DNA of 35,758 nucleotides from Sporichthyaceae bacterium (GTDB lineage: Bacteria > Actinomycetota > Actinomycetes > JAKEEW01): NCBI GenBank assembly GCA_022616375.1, contig JAKEEW010000401.1, positions 1 to 35,758 on the forward strand. Reading direction: 5' to 3'. Both the position numbers and the translations under genes were made by a program. Below are positions 6,330-15,174 of this stretch, in pieces. Below the pieces are notes generated by a model. It had not been told where the DNA came from. It did not search any database and saw nothing but the letters and a program-made list of their open reading frames with translations. The stretch's first letter is position 1, and each line of letters starts with the position of its first letter.

Positions 6330-6410
6330 CCATGATCGCCGTTTTCATGATCTCTTTTGTGCAAACGTGCAGGTCGTCGCTGAGTGAGATCATGAAAACA
6401 GCGATCATGG
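6330..6410. repeat. near-perfect 25-base inverted repeat
   Basis: Arms 6330-6354 and 6386-6410 are complementary at 24 of 25 bases (outer CCATGATCG / CGATCATGG, inner TTTTCATGATCTC / GAGATCATGAAAA), separated by 31 bases. It is AT-richer than anything around it. It lies in the 482-base gap (6200-6681) before smc. It is too long for a simple terminator and resembles an interspersed palindromic element. Confidence 0.75.
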
Positions 6411-12239: not shown

Positions 12240-13379
12240 ATGGAAATCTTGATTGTCGCCGTGGCCCTGGCCGTGATCCTGCTGGTCACCGCGGGTCTGC
12301 TGACCAGCTCCCGGCGGCGCCGCCGGCCGCCGGCCGGACCGATCCCGCCGATCACACCGACCACGCCGGCTACCCAGGCCGAGCCCGGCATCCCCGGCCA
12401 GCGCGAGCCCGCCGGCGACTACGCCGAGCCCGAGGCTCCGGTCACCACGATCGAGCGCCCCGAACCGGCGGCCGGCCGGCTGGTCCGGCTGCGGTCCCGG
12501 CTGGCCAGGTCCAACACGGCGTTGGGGCAGGGCCTGCTCGCCCTGCTGTCCAGGGACCACCTCGACGAGTCCACCTGGGAAGAGATCGAGGACGTGCTGC
12601 TGACCGCCGACCTGGGCGTCGCGCCCACCGGCGAGCTGGTCGAACGGCTGCGGACCAGGGCCAGGGTGGAGGGCATGACCTCGGCCGCGCAGGCCAGGCA
12701 GGTGCTGCGGGAGGAACTGCTCGCCCTGGTGGACCCGAGCCTGGACCGCAGCCTGCGGATCGACCGGGCCGGCCCACCCTCGGTGGTCCTCGTGGTCGGG
12801 GTCAACGGCACCGGTAAGACCACGACGACCGGCAAGCTGGCCCGGGTACTGATCGCCGAAGGGCACACCGTCGTGCTCGGCGCGGCCGATACGTTCCGGG
12901 CCGCGGCCGCCGAGCAGCTGACCACCTGGGGCGCCCGGGTCGGAGCCAGGACCGTGCGCGGTCCGGAAGGCGCGGACCCGGCCAGCGTCGCGTTCGACGC
13001 GGTTCGCGAAGGGATCGACGAGGGCGCCGACGCGGTGCTGGTGGACACCGCCGGCCGGTTGCACACCAAGACCGGGCTGATGGACGAGCTCGGCAAGGTC
13101 AAGCGAGTGGTGGAGAAGCACGGGCCGGTGGACGAGGTGCTGCTGGTCCTGGACGCGACCACCGGGCAGAACGGCATGGTCCAGGCCCGGGTGTTCGCCG
13201 AGGTCGTGGACGTCACCGGGATCGTGCTGACCAAGCTGGACGGGACTGCCAAGGGCGGCATCGTGGTCGCGGTGCAGCGCGAGCTCGGCGTGCCGGTCAA
13301 GCTGGTCGGCCTGGGCGAGGGCCCGGACGACCTGGCGCCGTTCGACCCGGAGGCGTTCGTCGACGCGCTGGTTTCCTAA
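12240..13379 (+). CDS. ftsY: signal recognition particle receptor FtsY
   Basis: FtsY is the membrane receptor for the SRP-ribosome complex. The protein is 379 residues: a hydrophobic helix at 2-22 (IAVALAVILLV type), an Arg stop (RRRRR), a Pro-rich linker, then the NG domain. G1 is GVNGTGKTTTT (from about 187), the DTFRAAAAEQL insertion box follows, G3 is VDTAGRLHTK (about 268-277) and G4 TKLDGTAKGG (about 330-339), which distinguish FtsY from Ffh. Unlike E. coli FtsY it has a true transmembrane anchor, as is common in actinobacteria. The ATG has no SD; a -10-like CAGACT ends 9 bases upstream, so it may be leaderless. Confidence 0.96.
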   Translation: MEILIVAVALAVILLVTAGLLTSSRRRRRPPAGPIPPITPTTPATQAEPGIPGQREPAGDYAEPEAPVTTIERPEPAAGRLVRLRSRLARSNTALGQGLLALLSRDHLDESTWEEIEDVLLTADLGVAPTGELVERLRTRARVEGMTSAAQARQVLREELLALVDPSLDRSLRIDRAGPPSVVLVVGVNGTGKTTTTGKLARVLIAEGHTVVLGAADTFRAAAAEQLTTWGARVGARTVRGPEGADPASVAFDAVREGIDEGADAVLVDTAGRLHTKTGLMDELGKVKRVVEKHGPVDEVLLVLDATTGQNGMVQARVFAEVVDVTGIVLTKLDGTAKGGIVVAVQRELGVPVKLVGLGEGPDDLAPFDPEAFVDALVS

Positions 13380-13410
13380 CCCCCGCCCCTCCGCCTGACG
13401 CAGTTTTCTG

Positions 13411-13484
13411 GATCATTACTCGCGATCTGCGCAGACAAATCGCCCAAATTGGGTGATCGTTTGCGCAGATCGCGGGTAATGATC
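13411..13484. repeat. 74-base near-perfect palindrome between ftsY and ffh
   Basis: Left arm 13411-13447 and right arm 13449-13484 are almost fully complementary: outer GATCATTAC / GTAATGATC, middle CGCGATCTGCGCA / TGCGCAGATCGCG, inner CCCAA / TTGGG with a single central A. Only a few mismatches and one bulge interrupt about 35 base pairs. It begins 31 bases after the ftsY stop. It may serve as a terminator, but the length and AT-rich ends suggest a mobile or repetitive palindromic element. Confidence 0.75.
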
Positions 13485-13513
13485 GGGAAGAGCGGCGGGA
13501 TGTCGCGGTCGAC

Positions 13514-13560: not shown

Positions 13561-15174
13561 GTGTTCGACACGCTTTCCGATCGCCTCGCCGCGACCTTCA
13601 AGAACCTGCGCGGCAAGGGCCGGCTCTCACCCGCCGACCTCGACGCGACCGCCAGGGAGATCCGGGTCGCGCTGCTCGAGGCCGATGTTGCGCTGCCGGT
13701 GGTCCGGGAGTTCATCGCCGCGGTGAAGGAGCGGGCGAGCGGGGCGGAGGTGCACCAGGCACTCAACCCGAGCCAGCAGGTCATCAAGATCGTAAATGAC
13801 GAGCTGGTCCGGATCCTCGGTGGCGAGACCCGGCGGCTGCGGTTCGCCAAGCACCCGCCCACCGTGATCATGCTGGCCGGTCTGCAGGGCACCGGTAAGA
13901 CCACGCTGGCCGGCAAGCTCGGTCGCTGGCTCAAGGCGCAGGGCAACCACCCGCTGCTGGTGGCGGCCGACCTGCAGCGCCCGAACGCGGTCCAGCAGCT
14001 CCAGGTGGTGGGGGAGCGCGCCGGGGTGCCGGTGTTCGCGCCCGAGCCGGGCAACGGGGTGGGCGATCCGGTCGCGGTCGCCAAGGCGTCGATCGAGCAC
14101 GCCCACTCGAAGCTCTACAACGTGGTAGTGATCGACACCGCCGGGCGGCTCGGTATCGACGCGGAGATGATGAAGCAGGCCGCCGACATCCGGGACGCGG
14201 TGAGCCCGGACGAGGTCCTGTTCGTGGTCGACGCGATGATCGGACAGGATGCGGTCGCCACCGCCCAGGCCTTCCTGGACGGCGTCGGTTTCGACGGGGT
14301 CGTGCTGACCAAGCTGGACGGCGACGCCCGCGGTGGCGCCGCGCTCTCGGTCGCCCAGGTGACCGGGCGCCAGATCATGTTCGCCAGCAATGGCGAGAAA
14401 CTCGACGACTTCGACGTGTTCCATCCGGACCGGATGGCCTCGCGCATCCTCGGGATGGGCGACCTGCTCACCCTCATCGAGCAGGCGGAGCGGACCTTCG
14501 ACGCCGATCAGGCCGCGAAGATGGCCGAGAAGGTGGCCAGCGGTCGCGCCCACGAGATGACCCTGGAGGACTTCCTCGCGCAGATGGAGCAGGTACGCAA
14601 GCTCGGCTCCATCTCGAAGCTGCTCGGGATGATCCCGGGCATGGGGGAGATGCGTGAGCAGATCAACAACATCGACGAGCGAGAGATCGACCGGATCGCC
14701 GCGATCATCAAGTCGATGACCCCGGCCGAGCGGGCCGAGCCGAAGATCATCAACGGTTCGCGCCGGGCCCGGATCGCACGCGGTGCCGGAGTGACCGTGA
14801 CCGACGTGAACGGCCTGCTGGATCGCTTCGGCGATGCCCAGAAGATGATGAAGCAGATGTCCCGCGGCGGCGGTGGCTTCCCTGGGATGCCTGGCATGCC
14901 CGGCATCCCGGGCATGCCAGGCGGCGGGAAGAAGTCGCGGGGCAAGTCGGCCGGGAAGAAGGGCAAGAAGCCCAACCGCAGCGGTAACCCCGCGCGCAGC
15001 GGCAACCCGGCCAAGCAGAGCGGCGGGCAGCCGGGCCGTACCAGTCCGGGCGAGCTTCCAGCCGCGTTCGGCGGCGGCGCCTTTGGCGGCGGCTCGGCGA
15101 CCGGACAACCGGGTCCCGACGACATCGACCTTCCGCCGGAGCTGCGCGACTTCCTGGGCGGCGGCCCGCGGTAG
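13561..15174 (+). CDS. ffh: signal recognition particle protein Ffh
   Basis: Ffh binds 4.5S RNA and signal sequences emerging from the ribosome and docks on FtsY. The product is 537 residues from the GTG at 13561. The N domain begins MFDTLSDRLAATFKNLRGKG; G1 is GLQGTGKTT (from 107); DTAGRLGIDAEMM and TKLDGDARGGAALS follow. The M domain carries the RNA-binding GSRRARIARGAG (near residue 400-411). After it comes a long tail (about 441-537): four GMPG/GIPG triplets, a Lys/Arg/Ser block, Gly-rich FGGGAFGGGS, and the acidic end DDIDLPPELRDFLGG. The family's GMPG tail is known, but this one looks long. The gene is separated from ftsY by 181 bases. Confidence 0.96.
   Translation: MFDTLSDRLAATFKNLRGKGRLSPADLDATAREIRVALLEADVALPVVREFIAAVKERASGAEVHQALNPSQQVIKIVNDELVRILGGETRRLRFAKHPPTVIMLAGLQGTGKTTLAGKLGRWLKAQGNHPLLVAADLQRPNAVQQLQVVGERAGVPVFAPEPGNGVGDPVAVAKASIEHAHSKLYNVVVIDTAGRLGIDAEMMKQAADIRDAVSPDEVLFVVDAMIGQDAVATAQAFLDGVGFDGVVLTKLDGDARGGAALSVAQVTGRQIMFASNGEKLDDFDVFHPDRMASRILGMGDLLTLIEQAERTFDADQAAKMAEKVASGRAHEMTLEDFLAQMEQVRKLGSISKLLGMIPGMGEMREQINNIDEREIDRIAAIIKSMTPAERAEPKIINGSRRARIARGAGVTVTDVNGLLDRFGDAQKMMKQMSRGGGGFPGMPGMPGIPGMPGGGKKSRGKSAGKKGKKPNRSGNPARSGNPAKQSGGQPGRTSPGELPAAFGGGAFGGGSATGQPGPDDIDLPPELRDFLGGGPR

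Follow-up and report, generated by a model that had tools for sequence, protein, structure and literature searches.

A dispersed family of palindromic repeats with fixed ends, represented between ftsY and ffh in a Sporichthyaceae bacterium

The genes ftsY and ffh of a Sporichthyaceae bacterium are separated by a long palindrome. A hairpin in this position raises the question of whether it is an RNA belonging to the one locus, a terminator, or a member of a family of dispersed elements. An earlier note, made from the sequence alone, considered the last of these and suggested that a second palindrome, at position 6330, might belong to the same family. The stretch of DNA analysed, contig JAKEEW010000401.1 at its full length of 35,758 nucleotides, is termed the window.

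The palindrome and its conserved parts

The 74-bp palindrome between the two genes is real and imperfect (Table 1). The strongest short-range inverted repeat in the window has arms at 13406-13436 and 13459-13489, which are 87% complementary. RNA of positions 13400-13495 folds at -68.5 kcal/mol, compared with a mean of -27.2 kcal/mol for shuffled sequences (z -12.4; none of 200 shuffles was as good). The earlier note had described about 35 base pairs with a one-base centre. The long hairpin stands, but the exact count does not: there are 34 pairs including G-U (26 + 8), with a 2 x 1 internal loop and a 3-nt loop. The ends are as that note gave them. As the palindrome is asymmetric, the family that it represents, here termed family A, has an orientation.

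Table 1. Positions of the palindromic elements, their parts and the neighbouring genes in the window
Feature	Position	Strand	Description
Family-A1 palindromic element	13411-13484	+	74 bp; GACAA left and TGATC right of the centre give the orientation
Left arm	13411-13436	+	First 9 bp, GATCATTAC, nearly invariant across family A
Inner hairpin	13439-13457	+	From the fold and conserved alignment columns; 8 pairs, 3-nt loop at 13447-13449; holds the conserved core
Right arm	13459-13484	+	Last 9 bp, GTAATGATC, nearly invariant across family A
Left flank	13406-13410		Family consensus TTCCC; about 5 bp pairing with the right flank above cross-copy expectation
Right flank	13485-13489		Family consensus GGGAA; partner of 13406-13410
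ftsY	12240-13379	+	Pfam SRP54 GTPase and SRP54_N; stop 31 nt upstream of the element
ffh	13561-15174	+	Pfam SRP54, SRP54_N and SRP_SPB; start 76 nt downstream of the element
Family-B palindrome	6330-6410	+	81 bp; gap before smc; dispersed family separate from A

Constant across family A are the ends (GATCATTAC/GTAATGATC), a length of 74-76 bp and an off-centre core; the mid-stem is variable. An alignment of 39 sequences has 25 invariant columns, which include most of both ends and also parts of GA(C/T)AA left of the centre, and TGATC right of it. Among 35 copies of equal length, 29 of the 74 columns are invariant where 0.5 would be expected at a uniform rate, a comparison that is indicative only, as the copies are related.

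The variable mid-stem is compensated. Double changes occupy 43 cells, compared with 21.4 +/- 5.8 after shuffling, and none of 500 shuffles reached this number, although the shuffling ignores relatedness. Eight pairs show double changes, a count that does not exceed the shuffled data (155 of 500). With arms taken from different copies as the expectation, mirror position 10 pairs in 29 of 38 copies (16.9 expected) and position 11 in 33 of 38 (20.6 expected). The five positions immediately outside the ends also pair above expectation, in 29, 23, 28, 24 and 22 of 47 copies, the expected values being 23.7, 16.5, 21.6, 19.4 and 17.8. RNAalifold alone yields only 17 pairs, below the single-sequence fold. 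The 30-nt arms on their own have a median fold z of -0.13, with 12 of 96 below -2. Compensation of this kind can arise by selection for the hairpin or by template-switch correction of quasi-palindromes, and these results fit either source.

Copies in the genome and a second family

The genome is a draft of 4.64 Mb in 971 contigs, 96.75% complete with 5.77% contamination, and has a GC content of 0.70 (422 kb sample). A sequence search of the assembly, in which a palindrome matched in both directions gives two rows, finds copies elsewhere in the genome at about 78-95% identity, and a covariance model adds a few more. These searches resolve to 42 places in the genome (43 rows minus one, L128, from Thiobacillus). 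The inverted copies of the ends, for which the earlier note had proposed a genome-wide search, are indeed present. The 9-mer GATCATTAC occurs 119 times (the reversed control, 0), and 96 of these occurrences sit in 48 inverted pairs with both 9-bp ends perfect. Among the matches listed, the 9-mer reaches 14 more copies or part copies, which brings family A to at least 56 places. The suggestion of a family of palindromic elements with variable interiors is thus borne out, with fixed ends. Solitary 9-mers that were examined lie mostly within coding DNA or are part copies. A DNA-uptake word was ruled out, since the 9-mer occurs in pairs and is not abundant singly.

The 48 intact elements in the DNA examined fall into two types, 38 of type A1, like the copy in the window, and 10 of type A2, which has longer ends (GATCATTACGCRC, 13 bp rather than 9) and a much more divergent interior. 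In one A2 copy (L153:574-669, contig C846) the left end and flank are tandemly duplicated with a spacing of 21 bp.

The palindrome at 6330 belongs elsewhere. Its ends, of about 23 bp, are CCAAGATCGCCGTTTTCATGATC-like and its core is GCAGGTCG-like. The genome carries at least 24 copies of this palindrome; both neighbours were called for 23 copies, and 5 of these stand at divergent sites. Neither query retrieves the other family at E up to 10. Membership in family A, as the earlier note had suggested, is ruled out by the different ends, the different core and this lack of cross-matching. The exact end word is found in none of 147 other genomes of the class. Family B is a separate lineage-specific family, unrelated to A.

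The distribution of family A is likewise narrow. Its covariance model has no match in 59 other genomes of the class (stricter filters), and its end-pair pattern none in 392 other genomes, relatives at class level. The exact A1 pattern has one match in genome_contigs, a collection of one genome per species for 84,980 species from which the genome's own records may be left out. This sole match, a Thiobacillus contig where the pattern overlaps a predicted gene, was taken as chance and is uncounted, and wider taxonomic spread was rejected. Phage or plasmid origin was also rejected, with no match in phage and plasmid collections, nor by exact pattern in viral_contigs. No description of family A was found among the papers listed in literature searches, which do not work by sequence and so give a weak negative. 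As far as could be seen, family A is new as a family, and its general kind is already known.

Placement relative to genes

Gene calls were made with a simple codon-usage open reading frame finder, so gene starts are approximate. Both neighbours were called for 42 of the intact elements; of the other 6, 4 stand at the edge of a contig and 2 overlap predicted genes. The 42 comprise 23 in convergent gaps, 19 in co-directional gaps and none in divergent gaps. Of intergenic base pairs, 0.29 lie in divergent gaps and 0.14 in convergent gaps (422 kb sampled from contigs bearing hits, not at random); given that share, finding none of 42 in divergent gaps has a P of about 6e-7. The gap count does contain one A-bearing divergent gap, attributed to a decayed half-copy (L148) with divergent neighbours. 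In the co-directional gaps 12 elements have the opposite orientation and 7 the same, with no clear preference.

The elements begin 1-80 nt from stop codons (60 distances, from 37 A-bearing regions that are 40-400 bp long and in which both ends were recognised). These distances overlap the positions of ordinary one-off hairpins in the same genome, which also stand at gene ends, mostly without U-tracts. Family A displays one feature of canonical terminators, a stable hairpin that closely follows the stop codon. There is no U-tract on either side of the elements, the flank consensus being GGGAA outward on both strands, and family A is therefore not a canonical intrinsic terminator. The earlier note was right that the palindrome greatly exceeds the length that termination requires; its location is nonetheless that of gene-end hairpins.

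An additional plain hairpin is found in none of the 23 A-bearing convergent gaps and in 7 of the 18 without A or B (Fisher P 0.0014), a contrast that is partly a length effect, since the flanks beside A are short. Of convergent gaps without A, 11 of 18 lack a plain hairpin. Without the element, A-bearing convergent gaps have a median of 43 bp, equal to that of gaps without A, which is what insertion followed by mere tolerance would give.

Overlap with genes was seen at two sites. One A2 copy (L136:1628-1702, contig C718) is translated as part of an acyl-CoA dehydrogenase, whose C-terminal tail it forms a few codons past the domain end. Another copy overlaps an open reading frame (L010:490-1548, contig C951) only through an apparent draft frame shift near its 3' end, and the true stop is likely 29 nt upstream of the element. 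This reading frame resembles a sugar-binding protein, as judged by reading the sequence.

Origin and probable role

Some copying process, presumably transposition-like, is needed to explain homologous elements at dozens of loci that are otherwise unrelated. The read-through copy in the acyl-CoA dehydrogenase and the equal gap medians fit insertion. The earlier note had envisaged a transposase that mobilises the ends, and none was found: PF01797 and NF047646, models for RAYT/Y1 transposases, have no matches in the assembly, which is 96.75% complete, and control genomes were positive. On two contigs, C155 and C718, the genes that lie between or next to closely spaced A ends include a two-component system, an MMPL protein, an acyl-CoA dehydrogenase and a luciferase-like monooxygenase, with no transposase among them. 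As to target-site duplications, 47 copies show no more direct repeats within a copy than across copies, z being at most 1.8 over many settings, and no empty site was seen.

Several known systems resemble family A in part. REPINs, REP doublets that form hairpins in Pseudomonas and others, include the GI doublets of SBW25, with 71 bp between their invariant ends (PMC3116915). Family A displays the same conserved inverted ends, near-fixed length and compensated hairpin interior of constrained length, together with extragenic dispersal; solitary ends are read as remnants in that account (PMC3116915). Unlike REPINs, family A occurs in an assembly without a detected RAYT/Y1 transposase, and its ends, of 9 bp (13 in A2), have no hairpin of their own. 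The REP feature in which each end is a palindrome of 20-40 bp is absent, as single arms do not fold. REPINs are moreover reported to be random across extragenic space (PMC3116915), whereas family A is strongly biased to gene ends.

That bias is shared with REPs tagged by GTAG or CGTC and their dimers, described as lying mostly between unidirectional and convergent genes, near 3' ends (PMC3733652). The CGTC type is described there as lacking a dedicated transposase, and some families are species-specific, many having 20-100 units; the main text of that source does not contain the word Actinobacteria (PMC3733652). Family A differs from tagged REPs in that its arms do not fold alone and the tags are no feature of its ends: one or other motif, whichever the strand, is present within the terminal 15 nt of 3 and 7 of the 48 elements.

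Like the inverted pairs of Haemophilus uptake signals that act as terminators, family A pairs a short fixed word with its inverted copy at the 3' ends of genes (PMC5217627). Unlike those signals, its 9-mer is not abundant singly. The 'I-shaped' terminators of mycobacteria are defined by shape and not by shared sequence, and family A differs from them in being a family of repeats whose ends and core are fixed. The likeness lies in a hairpin without U-tract at 50 bp or less from the stop (PMC12288462).

The element that separates ftsY from ffh is probably a copy of a lineage-specific, REPIN-like miniature repeat that persists as a bidirectional gene-end hairpin, a terminator and/or a 3' barrier. 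Family A would have been copied around the genome by some transposition-like process, its copies persisting almost solely just downstream of stop codons. A transcript arriving from either side would form a long hairpin without U-tract, which might serve as a bidirectional terminator and/or as a barrier to 3' exonucleases. At this locus the copy could separate the two transcripts or attenuate them, and could protect the 3' end of ftsY mRNA. The gene-end role is a probable one, predicted from position; copies may act as gene-end hairpins or merely be tolerated as such.

Other explanations account for parts of these results. The placement between two genes of the signal recognition particle pathway and the strong fold would suit an RNA of this single site, a regulatory leader of ffh or a 3' element of ftsY. 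The same element is present at dozens of unrelated genes, which rules out a local RNA function, and the window has no Rfam match above the gathering score; a single-site RNA is scarcely credible. The earlier note had taken a palindrome conserved at this locus only, across genera, as the sign of such an RNA; dozens of dispersed copies are seen instead. A purely selfish miniature repeat, which inserts anywhere, is lost from genes and promoters and forms a hairpin useless to the host, is possible if doubtful. The ordinary size of A-bearing convergent gaps once the element is subtracted, the lack of clear orientation bias at co-directional sites and the dehydrogenase tail all agree with it, but the closeness to stop codons and the lack of intact divergent copies, compared with 5 of 23 in family B, suggest more than tolerance.

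In a host-encoded terminator system, a dedicated factor would recognise the ends and core, and copies would be held by selection rather than by self-propagation. Invariant ends and an off-centre core beside a varying, compensated mid-stem, the gene-end position and the missing hairpins beside A are all as such a system would predict. Homology among copies at dozens of unrelated places would still require copying, however, other genes are served by ordinary hairpins and no candidate factor was identified; this explanation is unlikely. A bolder form of the preferred reading is also unlikely. It would make family A a RAYT-independent REPIN-like replicator that belongs to a deep, isolated lineage and is now domesticated, serving throughout the genome as a bidirectional, sequence-marked signal of gene ends, with a dedicated factor reading its invariant ends and core.

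REPIN-like anatomy in a genome without a detected RAYT bears on whether RAYTs are needed for spread or persistence. The strict gene-end placement provides a natural test set for dispersed palindromes as terminators in high-GC bacteria with hairpins that lack U-tracts.

Several family A copies lie less than about 200 bp from contig ends (C155, C198, C546, C708, C832, C68, C448 and C130), as if the hairpins had broken the assembly there.
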